A stretch of 64,000 bases of DNA from Phaeacidiphilus oryzae TH49 (GTDB taxonomy: Bacteria > Actinomycetota > Actinomycetes > Streptomycetales > Streptomycetaceae): contig NZ_JQMQ01000005.1 in assembly GCF_000744815.1 (NCBI RefSeq), positions 3,852,055-3,916,054 on the forward strand, written 5' to 3'. The position numbers and the translations under genes were made by a program. The stretch's first letter is position 1, and each line of letters begins with the position of its first letter. Under the pieces are notes generated by a model. That model made no database searches. It worked only from the letters and a program-made list of their open reading frames with translations, and was not told the DNA's origin. This document shows positions 5,997 through 15,256 of the stretch, piece after piece.

Positions 5997-7454
5997 TCAG
6001 TGCTGCCAGGCCGTCAGGAGGTCCTGGGGGGCGAGGACGCGGTCCACCGGGAGGTCGGGGACGGTTCCTGAGGGGCAGATGGCCAGGAGGCGGGCCGCGG
6101 CCGCGCCGGGGATGTCGGAGCGGGCCTCGGCCAGGCGGTCCAGGTCGCGTCGTTCGAACGGGGCCCCTTCCCGCCACTTCACCGATCCGACCTCGAGGAC
6201 CCTCTTCGCTCCTGCCGCGGCGATCACCACGTCGTACTCCCGGCTGTTGTCGCGGTTCCACCAGGAGCCCACCTCTCCGGCCTCGGCCTCGGGCTGGTCG
6301 GTGCTCCGCTCCGCACGGTCCGCGGCGAGCCTGGAGACGGCTTCGTGGAGGAGGGGTTCCACGGCCCGTCCGCGCCAGCTCGCCCACCCTCGGGCGAAGC
6401 GGCTTACGGGGATGTCCGGTCGGCCGCGCGAGATGTGTGCCTGCTGTCCTTCGACGAAGCGGAACCAGAAGCGCAGATAGGGGTCGGCGATGCGGTACCG
6501 GCGGAGTTTGGTGGTGCGGATGGCGCCCACCGGCACGTCGATGGAGACCACGCCCTTGTCGTCTAGAACCTTCAGCGCTCTGGCCACGGCGGTCTGCCCC
6601 GCTGAGCCCGTCTCCGGAAGTCGTCCCACCACCTGGGTGAAGCCGGCGAGGCCCACCGGCTGCCCGCCGATCGCGGTGAGTACCCGGCGGGCCTGGGCGG
6701 CGTCGGGGAACTCCGCGTCCAGCGAGCGCTGACCCATCACCACCAAGTCGCCGTTCTCGTCCTGCAGTTGGGCGCGGACGAAGTCCTCGGTGCCGTCACA
6801 GCGGGCGAGGTCGAGCATCAGCCTCGGGTAGCCACCGGTGACCAGCACCGCGTCGAAGGCGTCCATGGCGGACCGGTCCGCCCCGAGGACCTCGGCGCAC
6901 TCGGCGGGGTCGAAGGGGCGCACGGTCAGCCCCTTGGCGCGGCCGTAGAGCGGACGGTCGTGCTCGGTCAGCCGCTCCATCATGGTCACGTCGGAACCGA
7001 TGAGGATGAAGAAGACCGGGGCGCCCTCCAACTGCTTGTCCCAGGCGTTCTGGAGGTAGCCCTCCAGGGTCGGATCGGTGGCCGCCGCCCAGGGGAACTC
7101 GTCGAAGACGACGATGGAAGGGGTGTCCCGGCAGGCCAGGGCGATCCGGCCGAACGCGTCGCGCCAGTCCGCCGGAGGCGTGGCGAAGAGGGAGTCGGCG
7201 TCCCTCAACGGAGTGGTCGCGGTGTGCAGCTCCTCGGTGAGCGCCCGCATCTGGGCGGCGGGGGCCGCGTTCTTCACCGCGCTGAAATAGAGGTAGGGAA
7301 GCCCCGACTGCTCCACGAAGCGGGTGATCAGCCGGGATTTGCCCACCTGCCGGCGGCCGCGTACGGCGAGCAGTTGCCCGGCTCCGTCCGCACGGATGCG
7401 ATCCAGGCGCTGCCGCAGATCGGCGAGCAGGCGGTCGCGGCCGTAGAAGCTCAT
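5997..7454 (-). CDS. DUF234-type AAA ATPase (ATPase_2 domain plus C-terminal DUF234)
   Basis: A 485-residue protein with an N-terminal P-loop ATPase: Walker A GRRQVGKS at 33-40, Walker B IVVFDEFPW at about 114-122. Its C-terminal half matches the DUF234 layout, with a winged-helix-like region and then a nuclease-like fold around RDNSREYDVVIAA and KRVLEVGSVKW. Such proteins are common in archaea and actinobacteria; their role is unproven and some are suspected to be selfish or defence-related. The ATG at 7454 has GGGAG upstream. A perfect 10-bp inverted repeat lies 17 bases upstream of the start and probably controls this gene. No partner gene is adjacent. Confidence 0.8.
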   Translation of the reverse strand: MSFYGRDRLLADLRQRLDRIRADGAGQLLAVRGRRQVGKSRLITRFVEQSGLPYLYFSAVKNAAPAAQMRALTEELHTATTPLRDADSLFATPPADWRDAFGRIALACRDTPSIVVFDEFPWAAATDPTLEGYLQNAWDKQLEGAPVFFILIGSDVTMMERLTEHDRPLYGRAKGLTVRPFDPAECAEVLGADRSAMDAFDAVLVTGGYPRLMLDLARCDGTEDFVRAQLQDENGDLVVMGQRSLDAEFPDAAQARRVLTAIGGQPVGLAGFTQVVGRLPETGSAGQTAVARALKVLDDKGVVSIDVPVGAIRTTKLRRYRIADPYLRFWFRFVEGQQAHISRGRPDIPVSRFARGWASWRGRAVEPLLHEAVSRLAADRAERSTDQPEAEAGEVGSWWNRDNSREYDVVIAAAGAKRVLEVGSVKWREGAPFERRDLDRLAEARSDIPGAAAARLLAICPSGTVPDLPVDRVLAPQDLLTAWQH

Positions 7455-7471
7455 CCGAGGTCTCCCAGGGA

Positions 7472-7508
7472 AAACTTACATCTGAGTAACATACATCTAT
7501 GTAAGTTT
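7472..7508. promoter_or_regulatory. Operator-like inverted repeat upstream of the DUF234 ATPase
   Basis: AAACTTACAT at 7472-7481 is the exact reverse complement of ATGTAAGTTT at 7499-7508, with a 17-base AT-rich spacer containing further TACAT repeats. In such GC-rich DNA this AT-rich dyad just upstream of the start is likely a regulator site overlapping the promoter. Confidence 0.6.
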
Positions 7509-7560
7509 AGCAGCCGGCAGGCCTGCGGCTCCCATGGCCCCGGCGAGGGGGCCGGCGGGT

Positions 7561-8028
7561 TCAGGGATGGCTGACCGGGGAGGCGGTGGGGACGCCGTCG
7601 GGGGCGGCCGTGGTGGGGGCGGCCCCCGGGCCGTTGCCGGTGGAGGGTGGGACGGACGGGGGCGCGGAGGACGGAAGGGAGGAGGGGACGGTCGACGGGG
7701 TGGGCTGCGGGGAGGACGCGCGGGGAGGCCGGGTGGGGGACGGGGCGGGGGTAGGGGCCGTGGCCGAGGTGGTGGCCGCCGGGGCGAGCGGGGGCGCGGG
7801 GGAATGCCGGGGCATGCCGACGGTGGGCCAGAGGGCGGCCGCGGCGGCGATCACCGCGGCCGTCGCGGTGCCTGCGGCGGCCGCGCGCAGCCTTCGGCGG
7901 CGGAGCGCGCGGCGGTGGACCCGCTCGAAGGCGCCGGGCGGCGGGGGGAGGACGGCCGGGCCGGGGCGCAGCAGCGCGGCCAGCTCCGCGTCGCCGTCCT
8001 CCTCCCAGGGGTCAATGGGCGTGATCAA
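7561..8028 (-). CDS. Anti-sigma-like single-pass membrane protein
   Basis: A 155-residue protein. A charged cytoplasmic stretch of about 50 residues (WEEDGDAELAALLRPG) leads into an Arg-rich patch, one membrane segment (about 51-68, AAAAGTATAAVIAAAAALW), and a long Pro/Ser/Thr/Ala-rich outer tail. This architecture, and a 17-base overlap with the upstream ECF sigma gene, point to a partner or anti-sigma factor. No zinc anti-sigma HxxxCxxC motif is visible, so the assignment rests on context. Confidence 0.6.
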   Translation of the reverse strand: MITPIDPWEEDGDAELAALLRPGPAVLPPPPGAFERVHRRALRRRRLRAAAAGTATAAVIAAAAALWPTVGMPRHSPAPPLAPAATTSATAPTPAPSPTRPPRASSPQPTPSTVPSSLPSSAPPSVPPSTGNGPGAAPTTAAPDGVPTASPVSHP

Positions 8029-8530
8029 GACGTCCTCCCAGTCCGGCCAGTCCGGCTCGCAGGAACTCCCGTGCGGCGTGCAGATCGGCCTTGACCGTTC
8101 CTTCCTTGCGCCTCGTCAGCAAGGCGATCTCCCGGACCGGCAGGTCGGCGAAGTAGTAGAGCAGGACGACGGTACGCAGCCGCTCCGGCAGCGACTGGAC
8201 CATCAGCCGTACCGAGACCGAGGTCTCCGTGCCTGCCGTGCCGTCCGCCCGCTGCTGGGCCAGCGCCGCCTCGGTGCCGGCCCGGCGGACCGCGCGCCGT
8301 TCGCGGTCCAGCTTGCGCCAGTGGTCCCGCACCAGGTTGGCCGCGGTCACATAGAGGAAGCCCCTGGGCTCCTCGACCGCGGTCCAGCGGGACCACAGGC
8401 GGGTGAACGCCTCGGACGCGATGTCGTGGGCGGTGCCGTCGTCGTCCACCAGGCGGCGGCACCAGCCGGCCAGGCCCGGGTAGAGGTCGGCGAACAGCTC
8501 GGCGGCTGCCCTGTCCTTGGCCGGGCTCAA
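8012..8530 (-). CDS. ECF-family RNA polymerase sigma factor
   Basis: A 172-residue protein with sigma region 2 (DIASEAFTRLWSRW, then FLYVTAANLVRDHWRK) and region 4 (LPERLRTVVLLYYFADLPV with the helix-turn-helix around EIALLTRRKEGTVKADL). The size fits short ECF sigma factors. It starts at TTG 8530, overlapping the sortase stop in a TTGA arrangement, so translation is probably coupled. It is followed by a membrane protein that may restrain it. Its likely targets include its own operon of secreted protein and sortase. Confidence 0.85.
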   Translation of the reverse strand: MSPAKDRAAAELFADLYPGLAGWCRRLVDDDGTAHDIASEAFTRLWSRWTAVEEPRGFLYVTAANLVRDHWRKLDRERRAVRRAGTEAALAQQRADGTAGTETSVSVRLMVQSLPERLRTVVLLYYFADLPVREIALLTRRKEGTVKADLHAAREFLRAGLAGLGGRLDHAH

Positions 8531-9225
8531 CTCTCTCCAGGGGTCAGCGAGGCGAAGACGATGACGTTGTCGGGATAGCCGTCGCCGGTTCGCGGGCCGC
8601 CGCAGGTGATCAGCCGCAGTTCGGGACGGTCGGTGTCACCGTAGACGGCGCCGGTCGGGAAGCGGTTCTTGGCGACCGTGCGCACCGCGTACACCGTGAA
8701 CGAGGCGTCGGCACCGTCTCGCAGGCGGACGAGGACGCGGGCGCCCTGCCGCAGCTCGGACAGCCGGAGGAAGACCCCGTTCCCGTACCGGCCGACGGTG
8801 ACATGGCCGAGGAGGACGGCCGGACCGGTCTCGCCGGGCGTGGGTGAGCCGCGGTACCAGCCGGCGGGGGCGTTCGCCTCGATCGGCGGGACCTGGACGG
8901 TCCCGTCCGGGGCCAGGCCGAGCTGGACGAGGGGGGCGTCGACCCCGATCGCGGGGATCCGCAGGCGTACCGGCACCGAGCGGGCGAGCGGAGCCGCCGC
9001 CTGCCCGGCCTGCCCGGCAGACGATGCGGGAGGCGGAGAGGGCGGGGAGACCGGGGAGGACGCGGATGCCGAGCCGGACGAGCCGGCGCCGGCCTGCCCG
9101 GTCGCCGCGCAGCCCGCGAGGAGGGCGGCGGCGAGGAGGGGCGCGGCGAGGGCGCCGCCTCGCGCCGCCATCCCCGCGTCGCGGGCGCGGGGACGGCCGC
9201 GGTGACGGGAGCGGGTGGGCCGCAA
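8527..9225 (-). CDS. Class F sortase
   Basis: A 232-residue exported cysteine transpeptidase. After an N-terminal hydrophobic export signal that ends at a lipobox-like LLAGC (Cys39) comes a low-complexity Ser/Pro linker and then the sortase beta-barrel (VPVRLRIPAIGVDAPLVQLG). The catalytic His is in LLGHVT (His141), the catalytic Cys in LITCGG (Cys208), with Arg212 following. Class F sortases are the actinobacterial type without a well-defined substrate motif. The gene begins 3 bases after the small secreted protein gene and overlaps the sigma factor gene, so the four genes form one operon. Confidence 0.85.
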   Translation of the reverse strand: MRPTRSRHRGRPRARDAGMAARGGALAAPLLAAALLAGCAATGQAGAGSSGSASASSPVSPPSPPPASSAGQAGQAAAPLARSVPVRLRIPAIGVDAPLVQLGLAPDGTVQVPPIEANAPAGWYRGSPTPGETGPAVLLGHVTVGRYGNGVFLRLSELRQGARVLVRLRDGADASFTVYAVRTVAKNRFPTGAVYGDTDRPELRLITCGGPRTGDGYPDNVIVFASLTPGES

Positions 9226-9228
9226 GGG

Positions 9229-9648
9229 TCAGTCCCGCCCCTGTCCGGCGGCCTTCTGCCGGCGGCGGAGTACGACCGCGCCCGCGCCGAGGACGAGCAC
9301 CGCTGCGCCGCCCGCGGCGCCGGCGTCCGTCGTCCAGGAGGACGCGCCGGAGGCCGTCGGCGGGACGCCGGTGTCCGGGGCGCCCGAGGGCACGGCGCTG
9401 ACCTGGGTGCCGCCGGTGGAGGGCGGCGCGGTCGGGGCGGCGCTCGGCGCGGCGGTGCCGACCGCGGTCGGGACGGCCGACGGTGCCGAGCCGTTGCCCG
9501 GCGGCCGGGTCGTGGGAGCGCTGCTGGCCCCCGCCGACGGGACCGGGCTGGGGGAGGAACCGGATCCGGCGGCGAAGGCCGTTCCGGCGCCGGCCGCGAC
9601 CAGTGCCGCGGCGCAGCCGGCGGCGGCGATGAAGGACCTTGCACGCAT
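9229..9648 (-). CDS. Secreted, C-terminally membrane-anchored low-complexity protein
   Basis: A 139-residue protein. A Sec signal peptide (RARSFIAAAGCAAALVAAGA, cleavage near AFA-A) is followed by about 75 residues of Ser/Pro/Ala/Thr-rich sequence, one C-terminal hydrophobic segment (GAAGGAAVLVLGAGAVVL) and a basic tail RRRQK. That is the shape of a sortase substrate or wall-spanning protein, but no LPxTG-type motif precedes the hydrophobic segment. The ATG at 9648 follows GGGAGAC; longer frames add non-coding-looking sequence. It is the first gene of the sortase operon and the obvious candidate substrate or partner. Confidence 0.7.
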   Translation of the reverse strand: MRARSFIAAAGCAAALVAAGAGTAFAAGSGSSPSPVPSAGASSAPTTRPPGNGSAPSAVPTAVGTAAPSAAPTAPPSTGGTQVSAVPSGAPDTGVPPTASGASSWTTDAGAAGGAAVLVLGAGAVVLRRRQKAAGQGRD

Positions 9649-10883: not shown

Positions 10884-11639
10884 GTGAGAGCGGTGGACGA
10901 CCAGTTGCCTCATTTCCCGCCGGCGCCAACGCCTGCCCCCGCGCCAACGCCCACGCCTCCGCCCGCGCCCGCCCTGCGCTCCGACGCGGTGGAGAACCGG
11001 GAGCGGATCCTCGACGCGGCCCGCGCCCTCTTCGCCGCCGAGGGACTCGACGTGCCGATGCGTGCGGTCGCCCGCCGCGCCGGGGTCGGCCCGGCCACCC
11101 TCTACCGGCGCTTTCCGACCAAGGAGGCGCTGGTCACCGAGGCGTTCGCGGAGCAGATGCAGGCTTGCCTCCGGATCGCCGAGGAGGGCTTGGCCGATCC
11201 GGACCCCTGGCACGGCTTCTGCCGGGTGGTCGAGCGGATCTGCGAGGTGAACGCCAGGGACCGCGGCTTCACCGACGCCTTCCTGGCCGCCTACCCCCAG
11301 GCGGTCGACCTCGCCGAGCACCGCGGCCGGACGCTGCGGGCGGTCTCCCGGCTCGCCCGCCGGGCGAAGGAGGCCGGAGGCCTGCGGCCCGACTTCGCGG
11401 TGGAGGATCTGATCATGATGATCATGGCCAACCGGGGCCTCCGCGCCCCGGGGGAGCCGGCCCGTATCGCGGCCTCCCGGCGGTTCGCCGCACTGGTGAT
11501 CCAGGCATTCCAGGCCTCGCCCGGACAGGCACCGCTGCCGCCGGTGCCCCGGCTCGATCCGGGGCCGCTCCAGCGGCCGGGCCCCGGTCAGGCCCCGGCT
11601 CCGGACCTGGGTCAGGGCTTGCGGGCCACGCCCGCGTAG
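10884..11639 (+). CDS. TetR/AcrR-family transcriptional regulator
   Basis: A 251-residue protein with a typical TetR N-terminal DNA-binding domain: RERILDAARALFAAEGL, then MRAVARRAGVGPATLYRRFPTKEAL (about residues 40-85), and a helical ligand-binding C-terminal domain. A Pro/Ala/Thr repeat precedes the HTH. The GTG at 10884 is used; a second GTG 9 bases later is equally possible. It is divergent from the MDR oxidoreductase with a shared palindrome. Its 3' end overlaps the convergent methyltransferase gene by 28 bases. Confidence 0.85.
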   Translation: MRAVDDQLPHFPPAPTPAPAPTPTPPPAPALRSDAVENRERILDAARALFAAEGLDVPMRAVARRAGVGPATLYRRFPTKEALVTEAFAEQMQACLRIAEEGLADPDPWHGFCRVVERICEVNARDRGFTDAFLAAYPQAVDLAEHRGRTLRAVSRLARRAKEAGGLRPDFAVEDLIMMIMANRGLRAPGEPARIAASRRFAALVIQAFQASPGQAPLPPVPRLDPGPLQRPGPGQAPAPDLGQGLRATPA

Positions 11640-12451
11640 AAGGAGGTGTCCTCCGGGGAGGGGGCCGGTCCGTCGACCGCCGGGTCGCGGTTCCAGGCGG
11701 CGGTCAGCACCACGCCGGGGGCGAGGAGTTCCAGACCGTCGAAGAAGCGGGCGACCTCGTCCCGGGTGCGCCAGCGGGCCTGGATGCCGGAGGCGGCGTA
11801 GGCCTCGGAGGCGGCCTGCAGCGCTGGGGTGACGTGGTCGTGGGTGCCGTGCGAGAGGACCAGGTGGCTGCCCGGCGGAAGGGCGTCGACGTACCGGGCG
11901 ACCAGGCCGTACGCCTCCTCGTCGGACGGGAAGAAGTGCAGGAGGGCCACCAGCAGCAGGGCCACCGGCCGGTCCAGGTCCAGGATCTCGGCGACTTGGG
12001 GGGAGCCGAGGACGGCCTCCGGCTCGCGGAAGTCGGCCTGGAGGTAGCGGGTGGCGCCGGAGGGGTGGGAGGAGAGGAGGGCCCGAGCGTGGGTGAGGAC
12101 GATCGGGTCGTTGTCGGCGTAGACCACGCGCGCGGTGGGGTCGACGCGCTGGGCGACCTCGTGCGGCGGGTCGACGGCGGGCAGCCCGGTGCCGATGTCC
12201 AGGAACTGGCGGACGCCGTGCTCGGCCGCGAGGGCGTGGACGGCGCGGCGCAGGAAGCGGCGGTTCTCCCGGGCGGCAATCGGAATGCTCGGGCAGGCCT
12301 CGGTGACCTGCTGGGCGACGGCGCGGTCGGCGGGGAAGTTGTCCTTGCCGCCCAGCCAGGCGTTGTAGACCCGTGCCGAGTGGGCGATGTCGGTGCGGAG
12401 GTCGACCGGCTGCCAGTCGTCCGTCGCCGTGGGCTTCATGAAGTCGGACAC
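11612..12451 (-). CDS. SAM-dependent methyltransferase, DUF574 family
   Basis: A 279-residue protein matching the actinobacterial S-adenosyl methyltransferase family (PF04672/DUF574). It has the family opening RTDIAHSARVYNAWLGGKDN, the glycine motif FLDIGTGLP, an acidic ribose-binding site VVYADNDPIV, and the motif ALLLVALLHFF. These proteins are numerous in Streptomyces; substrates are mostly unknown. Convergent overlap with the TetR gene suggests no functional link. Upstream it is divergent from the ion-channel-like gene. Confidence 0.85.
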   Translation of the reverse strand: MSDFMKPTATDDWQPVDLRTDIAHSARVYNAWLGGKDNFPADRAVAQQVTEACPSIPIAARENRRFLRRAVHALAAEHGVRQFLDIGTGLPAVDPPHEVAQRVDPTARVVYADNDPIVLTHARALLSSHPSGATRYLQADFREPEAVLGSPQVAEILDLDRPVALLLVALLHFFPSDEEAYGLVARYVDALPPGSHLVLSHGTHDHVTPALQAASEAYAASGIQARWRTRDEVARFFDGLELLAPGVVLTAAWNRDPAVDGPAPSPEDTSFYAGVARKP

Positions 12452-12688
12452 CCGGGATCCCCTCCGATGCGCTCGGGCCGCTCATCGCGGTCAGAGTCTG
12501 CCACGGTCCCGCGTCCGGTGATCAGCTGATCCGCCTGGTCGTACGGCTCGGTGACGCTCCGTCATCGGCCCTCGGCGGGCTCCGGCGGTGGGCACCCGCC
12601 GATGGGATGAACATCGCGGCGGAGGGTTCGCGGGAGGTGCGAAGCGCCAACGATCACTTGATCGTTCTCGTCCGTCCAGGAGGCGACC

Positions 12689-14077
12689 ATGTCGACCGAG
12701 TCCGGTTCCGTCCCGCCGTCCGGCACCGGCCGCGGCGGCTCCGCCCCGTCCCACGGCTCGCGCCCGCCGGGCCGCGGGCCGGGGCGGGGCGGAGTCCGGA
12801 CGGCCCTGGTGTACCTGGTGATCGCGGCCGTCCTCCTCGCCGTGTGCGGGGTGGCGGCCGCCGGGGTCAGCGTGCCGACGCGCGATCTCCTCGACCAGTC
12901 CCGCCGCTTCGCGCTGATCCTGGCCTGCGCGGTGGTCGGCCTGAGCTGCCTGGCGGCGGCGCTGCTGCTGCGCCGCGGCCCGAAGCGGCCGACCGCGCTC
13001 GGCTGGCTCAGCGCCGTCTTCTCGCTGCTCTGCCTGGCCGCGACGATCTGCGTCTGGACGGTGACCGGGGCCGACGACTCCACCAAGCACGTGCCCGGCA
13101 CCCTGATCTCGAACAACGCCCAGGCCGACGCCTTTCTGGCGGTCAACCATCAGCAGCGGCAGACCCGGGTGCCGACCGGTGTGCTGATCGAGACCGCCCA
13201 GTTCAGCGACGCCAACAACGTCAAGCTCACCGGCTTCGTCTGGCAGCGGCTGCCCGCCTCGGCCGATCCCGAGGTACCGCAGCTGCTGCTGCCGGACGCG
13301 GTGGACGGCGGGGTCGGCCCGATGGTCTACCAGCACCGGCTGGGCGGGCAGCAGGTGGTGGGCTGGCAGTTGCGCGCGACCGTGCGCCAGCCCTTCGACT
13401 ACCGCCACTACCCCTTCGACCGGCAGGTGATCCGGCTGACGATGTGGGCCACCGGCTACGGAAACGCGCTGGTGCCGGACTTCGACGCCTATCCGCCCTG
13501 GCAGAAGCACCGGAACATGGGCCTCTACCGGGAGCTGGTCTCCGGCGACTGGCACACCCAGTTCACCACCTTCGCCATGAACGAGGTGGACGACCAGACC
13601 AGCTACGGCAACACCGCCGTCTCGGTCCACAGCACCATCCCCGAGCTGCACTTCAACATCGGCGTCGCGCGCAACTTCCTCAGCCCGCTGCTGGACCGGC
13701 TGATCCCGCTGCTGGTGATCGCATGCCTGGTGTTCGCCTCGCTCTTCGTGGTCACCACCGACAGCGACCGGCGCTCGCTGGCCGGCTTCTCCACCTGGAC
13801 GGTGATCGGGTTCTGCGGGGCGATGATGCTGGTGGTCGCGGTGCAGCACAGTTCGCTGCGCTCGCAGACCGGCTCGGGCTCGGTGGTGTACGCCGAGTAC
13901 TTCTACTTCATCCTCTACCTGGTCATCGCGCTGACCGCGCTGAACGTCGTCGACTACACCGCCAACTCCCGCTTCCGGCTGGTCGCCTGGCGGGGCAATC
14001 TGGCGGCGCGGCTGCTGTACTGGCCGATCGCGATGGGGCTGGTACTGGCGGCGACCATCGGGGTGTTCCTGCTGTAG
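12689..14077 (+). CDS. Pentameric ligand-gated ion channel (Cys-loop receptor) homologue with N-terminal membrane extension
   Basis: A 462-residue membrane protein. Three hydrophobic segments (about 36-60, 72-95, 103-126) are followed by about 200 extracytoplasmic residues and four more membrane segments. The middle part reads like a prokaryotic pLGIC ligand-binding beta-sandwich: VPTGVLIETAQFSDANNVKL is followed by TGFVW, and the Pro-loop FDYRHYPFDRQVIRL corresponds to the conserved (F/Y)PFDxQ motif, without the flanking Cys pair, as in bacterial members. The C-terminal segments follow the M1-M4 pattern: M1 LLDRLIPLLVIACLVFASLF, M2 FSTWTVIGFCGAMMLVVAV, M3 YAEYFYFILYLVIALTAL, M4 at the extreme C-terminus. 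The family forms cation or anion channels gated by protons or small ligands. The three-segment N-terminal extension is unusual. Identification is by pattern recall, not a search. Confidence 0.65.
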   Translation: MSTESGSVPPSGTGRGGSAPSHGSRPPGRGPGRGGVRTALVYLVIAAVLLAVCGVAAAGVSVPTRDLLDQSRRFALILACAVVGLSCLAAALLLRRGPKRPTALGWLSAVFSLLCLAATICVWTVTGADDSTKHVPGTLISNNAQADAFLAVNHQQRQTRVPTGVLIETAQFSDANNVKLTGFVWQRLPASADPEVPQLLLPDAVDGGVGPMVYQHRLGGQQVVGWQLRATVRQPFDYRHYPFDRQVIRLTMWATGYGNALVPDFDAYPPWQKHRNMGLYRELVSGDWHTQFTTFAMNEVDDQTSYGNTAVSVHSTIPELHFNIGVARNFLSPLLDRLIPLLVIACLVFASLFVVTTDSDRRSLAGFSTWTVIGFCGAMMLVVAVQHSSLRSQTGSGSVVYAEYFYFILYLVIALTALNVVDYTANSRFRLVAWRGNLAARLLYWPIAMGLVLAATIGVFLL

Positions 14078-14197: not shown

Positions 14198-15256
14198 ATG
14201 GACGTGTTGGTGACCGGCGGGGCCGGTTTCATCGGGTCGGCGGTGGTGGCCCGGCTGCTCGGCGCCGGCCACCGGGTGCGGGTGCTGGACGCGCTGCTGC
14301 CCGCCGCGCACGGGGACGGCGGGCAGCGGCCGCGGCTTCCGGACGGGGCCGAGTTCCGGCACGGGGACGTGCGGGACGCCGAGGCCGTGCGCCGGGCGCT
14401 GGACGGCGTCGACGCGGTCTGCCACCAGGCCGCGATGGTCGGCCTCGGCAAGGACCTCGCGGACCTGCCGGCCTACGTGGGCTGCAACGACCTGGGCACC
14501 GCCGTCCTGCTGGCCGGGATGGAGCGGGCCGGGGTGCGGCGACTGCTGCTCGCCGGCTCGATGGTGGTGTACGGGGAGGGCCGCTACGACTGCCCGGAGC
14601 ACGGGCGGGTCGCGCCCGGCCCGCGCCACCCGGCCGAGCTGGACGCCGGGCGATTCGAACCGCCCTGCCCCCGCTGCGGGGAGCCGCTCGTGCCGGGGCT
14701 GGTGGACGAGACGGCGCCGGTGGACCCGCGCAGCGTGTACGCGGCGACCAAGCTCGCCCAGGAGCATCTGGCCGCCGCCTGGGCGCGGGGCTGCGGGGGG
14801 CGGGCGATCGCGCTTCGCTACCACAACGTGTACGGGCCGGGGATGCCGCGGGACACCCCGTACTCGGGGGTGGCCGCGCTGTTCCGGTCAGCGCTGGAGC
14901 GGGGGGAGGCGCCCCGGGTCTTCGAGGACGGCGGTCAGCGGCGGGACTTCGTCCATGTGGCCGACGTGGCGGCGGCGAACCTGGCCGCGCTGGATGTGCT
15001 GGCGAAGCCGGCGGCGGCCACGGTCTTCCGGGCGTACAACGTCGGGAGCGGAGTGGTGCACACCGTCGCCGAGCTGGCGGCGGGGCTGGCCGCGGCGCGG
15101 GGCGGTCCGGCGCCGGTGACCACCGGGGAGTACCGCCTCGGAGACGTCCGGCACATCACGGCCGACTCCGGCCGGGCGAGGGCGGAGCTGTCCTGGCGAC
15201 CGGCGGTCGGCTTCGCCGAGGGCGTGGCCGAGTTCGCGACGGCGCGGTTGCGCTGA
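14198..15256 (+). CDS. NAD-dependent epimerase/dehydratase (extended SDR)
   Basis: A 352-residue extended short-chain dehydrogenase. The NAD-binding motif GGAGFIG is at the N-terminus, the catalytic YxxxK is in SVYAATKLAQEHL, and the family motif YHNVYGPGMP follows. Substrates are usually nucleotide-linked sugars. An insertion after the catalytic-Ser strand contains CPEHG and CPRCG, spaced like a small zinc ribbon; I recall similar inserts in actinobacterial sugar epimerases such as dTDP-rhamnose 4-epimerases, but do not assign the substrate. The gene leads a glycosylation-type locus and has a candidate regulator site about 50 bases upstream. A -10-like TAGCGT lies between the site and the start. 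Confidence 0.85.
   Translation: MDVLVTGGAGFIGSAVVARLLGAGHRVRVLDALLPAAHGDGGQRPRLPDGAEFRHGDVRDAEAVRRALDGVDAVCHQAAMVGLGKDLADLPAYVGCNDLGTAVLLAGMERAGVRRLLLAGSMVVYGEGRYDCPEHGRVAPGPRHPAELDAGRFEPPCPRCGEPLVPGLVDETAPVDPRSVYAATKLAQEHLAAAWARGCGGRAIALRYHNVYGPGMPRDTPYSGVAALFRSALERGEAPRVFEDGGQRRDFVHVADVAAANLAALDVLAKPAAATVFRAYNVGSGVVHTVAELAAGLAAARGGPAPVTTGEYRLGDVRHITADSGRARAELSWRPAVGFAEGVAEFATARLR

Follow-up and report, generated by a model that had tools for sequence, protein, structure and literature searches.

Prokaryotic pentameric ligand-gated ion channels (pLGICs) are structural models for neurotransmitter receptors, and to our knowledge almost nothing has been learned of their native ligands and accessory modules. 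The window analysed here, the whole stretch of 64,000 nucleotides of Phaeacidiphilus oryzae TH49 DNA, contains a gene that an earlier note had read as encoding a pLGIC homologue with three additional membrane helices ahead of the ligand-binding domain (LBD). This raises the questions of whether the protein is indeed a pLGIC, what its N-terminal helices are, and how the two parts might work together.

The features of the gene and its upstream sequence are collected in Table 1. The GC contents at the three codon positions are 0.665, 0.487 and 0.97, and the third-position value (GC3) is 0.97-0.98 along the whole reading frame including its N-terminal part, which shows that the N-terminal extension is genuinely coding. 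The gene stands alone between a divergent gene for an S-adenosyl methyltransferase (Methyltransf_19; 11612-12451, - strand) and a co-directional NAD-epimerase gene (14198-15256, + strand), and is the single family member in the 7.8 Mb genome. A comparison of neighbourhoods did not reveal gene families common to the window locus and at least two other loci, and the window's clade has no conserved neighbour pointing to a ligand or role. The inverted repeat upstream of the gene is unique in the genome when up to two mismatches are allowed; when up to three are allowed, the expected number of matches is about 0.02 per window. A similar dyad (GATCA...TGATC) is present at the equivalent place in the relative L032. 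This palindrome is a possible operator.

Table 1. Features of the channel gene and of the DNA just upstream (positions in the window)
Feature	Position	Strand	Basis
Perfect 8-bp inverted repeat AACGATCA-CT-TGATCGTT	12649..12666	.	just 5' of ribosome site
Shine-Dalgarno AGGAGG	12678..12683	+	sequence; upstream of ATG
Gene for seven-helix pLGIC-family protein, 462 aa	12689..14077	+	ORF confirmed, intact, ATG start
Helix 1, residues 34-57, signal anchor, or perhaps a signal peptide removed by cleavage	12788..12859	+	AF2, pLDDT ~60-75
Helix 2, residues 63-94, equivalent of post-dCache helix in relatives	12875..12970	+	AF2; hairpin profile 20.0 bits
Helix 3, residues 101-128, Trp123	12989..13072	+	AF2; Trp123 invariant 74/74
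Beta-sandwich of ligand-binding-domain type, residues 158-328, ending at pre-M1 Arg328	13160..13672	+	AF2, fold comparison
Pro-loop YPFD, residues 241-244	13409..13420	+	P 74/74, D 73/74
M1, residues 329-354, kink Pro340	13673..13750	+	AF2, alignment
M2, predicted pore-lining helix, residues 366-394, invariant Arg391 at outer end	13784..13870	+	AF2, alignment
M3, residues 401-424, YAEYFYF motif	13889..13960	+	AF2; position 403 Glu/Asp in 74/74
M4, residues 438-462, WP motif	14000..14074	+	AF2, alignment

The AF2 models are of single chains, and that of the window protein was computed with an alignment of 74 sequences as input; all alignment counts given here refer to these 74 members. The model of the window protein (pLDDT 86.5, pTM 0.82) consists of helices 1 to 3, a beta domain and four further helices (331-354, 369-394, 401-424 and 438-461), in that order. 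Residues 156-462 match GLIC with a Z score of 20.2 and an rmsd of 2.6 Å over about 275 residues, and the next structural matches are ELIC and the GluCl, glycine and GABA-A receptors (Z 19-20). The beta-sandwich and the four-helix pore domain, without which the earlier note would have given up its reading, are thus both seen in the model. Together with the signature residues described below, the fold match to GLIC bears out the proposed homology, and the motifs from which the proposal had started, PTGVLIE (162-168), TGFVW (181-185), DYRHYPFDRQ (237-246) and YAEYFYFILYL (401-411), were all found. The suggested search with the Pfam pLGIC models PF02931 and PF02932 gave no match at E 0.1 on the window protein or on any of the 74 members; since the predicted fold is that of a pLGIC, the missing match is a limit of the models. 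Screening Pfam, NCBIfam and PHROGs for a ready-made family gave nothing apart from a weak match of the window protein to NCBIfam LGIC_1 (E 5.5e-4), and sequence searches of the PDB resulted in weak matches to GLIC and ACR-23 only. The pLGIC identity is barely visible in the sequence alone; it rests on the fold and the signature residues.

The window protein has six of the seven most conserved superfamily residues listed by Jaiteh et al. 2016 (PMC4795631), namely Y241, P242, D244, W288, R328 and P340. The [F/Y]PxD motif of the beta6-beta7 loop is present as Y241-P242-F243-D244, the beta9 aromatic W288 (72 of the 74 members) aligns with GLIC W160, and the pre-M1 Arg328 (73/74) is equivalent to GLIC R192. 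P340 (GLIC P204; 63/74) is located 12 residues past Arg328, a spacing identical to that of GLIC; this kink Pro of M1 is kept in 77% of the superfamily (Jaiteh et al. 2016, PMC4795631). The residue lacking is the M2-M3 loop Pro (GLIC P247), and 17 of the 74 members have any Pro in that loop. It occurs in 88% of the superfamily and is hence not obligatory (Jaiteh et al. 2016, PMC4795631). An animal-type Cys-loop receptor was ruled out, as residues 235-250 are without Cys in all 74 members. Prokaryotic pLGICs usually lack the Cys-loop cysteines. No conserved charged ring was found in M2 in the 74-member alignment, and for this reason ion selectivity is not predictable. The modelled fold and the signature residues mark the protein as a member of a divergent prokaryotic subfamily within the pLGIC superfamily.

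When 84,980 genomes were scanned with five aligned sequences as query, 152 relatives were found, and the best 80 of them were retrieved. These best 80 of 152 are from actinobacteria (Streptomyces, Crossiella, Allokutzneria and Actinomadura), other bacteria (Chloroflexota/Thermomicrobia, Cyanobacteria, alpha-, beta-, gamma- and deltaproteobacteria, Nitrospirota and Gemmatimonadota) and archaea (Methanosarcinales); no relatives were found in the viral contigs and phage records searched. A PF02931 search of five archaeal genomes holding members gave no match, and its control likewise matched nowhere. Among the Streptomycetaceae, the full-length gene is present in 3 of 298 sampled genomes and most others have fragments only; Kitasatospora and related genomes (L044, L009/L017, L012/L019, L013) contain fragments or broken copies only. 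Some of these copies may be assembly errors.

Hydropathy analysis distinguished three architectures. Type A proteins (~380-400 aa) have one helix followed by the LBD and four transmembrane segments (4TM), type B proteins (~710 aa) have a helix, ~290 aa and a helix hairpin before the LBD and 4TM, and type C proteins (~450 aa), to which the window protein belongs, have a helix, a short loop and a helix hairpin before them. The type B insert is a dCache domain, both by Pfam and by its fold (Z 24.7 against the sensor of the Pseudomonas chemoreceptor PctD), and the type B model runs helix, dCache, helix, helix, beta domain and four helices. In the Methanosarcinales, the stretch from helix 1 through dCache to helix 2 also matches the sensor portions of numerous further proteins (~1e-28 to 1e-32), among them a HAMP/HisKA_2 histidine kinase. 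By these sequence matches, the stretch behaves as a mobile chemoreceptor cassette, of which helix 2 is likely itself a part.

The three extra membrane helices are real: they are predicted by AF2 and conserved in homologues (in the window's clade, each helix is 47-51% identical), and they do fall outside the standard architecture. The earlier note called the extension novel, but it is not confined to the window protein: helices 2 and 3 are homologous to the hairpin of the dCache-type relatives. A profile built from type B hairpins alone scored 20.0 bits on the window N-terminus, as compared to maxima of 14.6 bits for 480 pattern-preserving shuffles, 10.1 bits for 480 full shuffles and 2.4 bits for the M1-M4 regions of the proteins. 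It reached at least 10 bits in 20 of the 24 type C members, and the scores of L107 and L038, which are of the seven-helix (7TM) type, were within noise. These profile scores argue that the type C hairpin is homologous to that of type B. At the outer end of helix 3, Trp123 is the same in every aligned sequence, those of type A included, and helix 3 is therefore the common anchor of the family; that of the window protein is homologous to the lone anchor helix of the short relatives.

An Arg-rich tail precedes helix 1. The loop between helices 2 and 3 is positively charged in the 7TM type (mean 2.9 K+R versus 0.75 D+E), which favours a hairpin that turns in the cytoplasm and an LBD outside the membrane. 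No match to dCache was found in the window protein, and in the AF2 model only ~5 residues separate helices 1 and 2. The extension is most readily understood as the membrane part that frames the sensor in a cassette of the chemoreceptor type, here with the sensor slot left empty. Of the accessory or sensing module envisaged in the earlier note, the frame of a sensor is thus recognizable through the hairpin homology, but the sensor itself is absent.

An empty slot could also mean that it had not yet been filled. The sensor-less 7TM form might be the older one, with dCache acquired secondarily between helices 1 and 2 and with the helices as the primary module, and we give this order of events a substantial chance, albeit short of favouring it. 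In a tree built on the core only, the architectures cluster strongly (three changes in total versus a shuffled mean of 35), and the type C members make up a main clade and, inside the Cache group, a pair from Chloroflexota (L082 and L087). The AU test does not reject one origin for the 7TM form (p 0.55), so that two origins of type C are not established. Rooting with other streptomycete pLGICs makes the 7TM members basal, as expected if they are older, but the outgroup branch measures 3.35 changes per site, which makes the root unreliable. Later insertion is also at odds with the similarity of the helix-dCache-helix stretch to histidine-kinase sensors, which extends up to about the second helix, and with the half-size Cache of the cyanobacterial member L074, which has the membrane-proximal half only.

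Whichever came first, the frame may count fewer helices than the model has. Helix 1 could be a cleaved signal peptide, leaving a mature subunit with the hairpin as its two extra helices and six helices in total, which we regard as possible while doubting it somewhat. Helix 1 has the lowest AF2 confidence of the protein and is followed by GVAAAGVSV, which resembles a signal-peptidase site, as do AYA/S and ALA/A after helix 1 of the Chloroflexota members L082 and L087. Such a site is not present after helix 1 of L038 and L052, however, and in the Cache-type relatives the equivalent helix continues into dCache as an anchor. Cleavage would leave the remaining topology unchanged.

Returning to the reading of the extension as an empty sensor frame, we consider it likely that the window protein forms homopentameric ligand-gated channels, in which the frame helices modulate gating rather than sense a ligand. 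By analogy with the superfamily, five subunits would assemble with their beta domains outside the membrane, and a small ligand or ion would bind at the LBD subunit interfaces. As is usual in the superfamily, the pair formed by Asp244 of the Pro-loop and the pre-M1 Arg328 would couple binding to the opening of M2, and ions would pass through the M2-lined pore. The N-terminal helices may form an outer ring packed round the pore domain. In the Cache-bearing relatives this ring could relay a further signal, that of a sensor located to its side; type B pentamers would then carry five lateral Cache sensors, with the membrane between these and the LBD. For the window type, a ligand-sensing role of the extension is unlikely, because no more than a few residues are left where the slot would be, and our best guess is that the ring modulates gating as an element for anchoring, for assembly or for responding to lipids.

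It is improbable that the protein is instead a non-conducting receptor of pLGIC fold whose 4TM part signals to partners without pore opening. Its M2 is admittedly unusual, with no conserved charged ring at the inner end, the invariant Arg391, His or Gln at position 387 and often Phe at 380-381, and the superfamily's M2-M3 Pro is absent. Against this, conservation within the window's clade is among the highest in M1-M3 (81-87%), and the protein has the full channel fold and no attached transmitter domain. That the gene is decaying and of little function, as its rare and patchy occurrence and the apparently broken Kitasatospora copy L044 could suggest, is very hard to reconcile with a window copy that is intact, typical in codon bias and in possession of all core signature residues but the M2-M3 Pro.

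Going beyond the single protein, we tentatively propose, with some doubt, a new pLGIC class whose accessory sensor exerts its effect on the channel across the membrane via a hairpin preceding the LBD. Each subunit would have seven helices (35 per pentamer), and the slot between helices 1 and 2 would be filled by dCache, half filled or empty. In the sensor-less form, the outer ring itself would be the gating input, responding for example to lipid, tension or a partner protein.

Several observations were made on the gene neighbours of the relatives. Among the best 80 of the 152 relatives, a PBP-I (Peripla_BP_6) gene adjoins the channel gene in 12 loci, which comprise Cache-type members and two Streptomyces loci (examples are L051:1907-3163, L067:7225-8403, L073:3753-4979 and L085:7204-8379; those of L078, L091 and L094 are divergent). 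This suggests a PBP-delivered ligand, and these neighbours of other members point to small-molecule ligands. In Streptomyces flavidovirens, a gene for a PBP-I-pLGIC fusion (L020:73-2433, upstream of L007/L041) ends ~26 bp before the window-type gene, and the two tandem pLGICs possibly co-assemble. Nine loci, from Methanosarcinales, Nitrosomonas and others, have a homologous gene beside the channel gene (L061:2641-4719, L045:1852-4807, L054:4789-5868 and 7251-9383, L070, L080, L089), the L061 copy of which matches Pfam eCIS_core, a possible link to islands of the contractile-injection type. Marine alphaproteobacteria have a class III adenylate/guanylate cyclase with SAM, AAA and TPR parts near the channel (L106:2594-5890; also L063, L071, L099, L110 and L056). 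Streptomycetes also contain another pLGIC-like family of ~350-370 aa (L014:1093-2211; L011:1441-2493, - strand), which has no N-terminal helices except a signal; L014 is without a Pfam match.

Pfam misses this family, which occurs widely in both bacteria and archaea and should be of interest to channel biologists. The family offers natural pairs, in which the same channel occurs with or without a sensor and has either one N-terminal helix or three, and these make control of a pLGIC by an accessory domain directly testable.

Among known systems, GLIC, the proton-gated pLGIC of Gloeobacter violaceus (PDB 3EHZ, 3EAM), shares with the window protein the fold of residues 156-462, the YPFD motif, the pre-M1 Arg and the spacing of the M1 Pro. 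It differs in sequence (~14% identity), in having no N-terminal membrane helices, and in its M2 and M2-M3 loop. Closer in layout are the fusions of MCP-N and Cache domains to prokaryotic ART-LGICs from Methanosarcina, Cytophaga and Microbulbifer, for which the available part of Tasneem et al. 2004 (PMC549065) gives the order signal peptide, extra domains, LBD and 4TM. As described there, the Cache/MCP-N proteins have a pLGIC core with an N-terminal dCache like the type B members of the Methanosarcinales, and the Methanosarcina proteins, matched by their make-up, probably are type B members. The window protein differs from them in having no Cache, and it does have the membrane hairpin that in the Cache-type relatives lies between sensor and LBD (20.0 bits versus a shuffle maximum of 14.6), which the available part of that account does not mention. 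The PBP-I-fused L020, of a kind also covered in that part (PMC549065), is likewise a streptomycete pLGIC and lies directly upstream of the window-type gene in L041. It differs in that Pfam recognises PF02932 and Peripla_BP_6 in it, in having a soluble sensor and no hairpin, and in belonging to a distant branch.

In the open-licence literature, as far as available, we found no earlier account of Cache, Streptomyces or hairpin pLGICs beyond Tasneem et al. 2004, and no description of the seven-helix sensor-less form or the intervening hairpin; the analysis of Jaiteh et al. 2016 (PMC4795631) left out the terminal regions by design. Within these sources, Cache-fused pLGICs were already known, and the membrane hairpin and the 7TM sensor-less form appear to be undescribed. 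DeCLIC, which has a soluble two-lobe periplasmic domain N-terminal to its ECD, has been described as the sole pLGIC with a partly characterised N-terminal domain (PMC9897478, PMC12664993). Like the window protein, it is a prokaryotic pLGIC with an N-terminal accessory module; its lobes, however, connect straight to the ECD at the periplasmic face, whereas the module of the window family consists of membrane helices.
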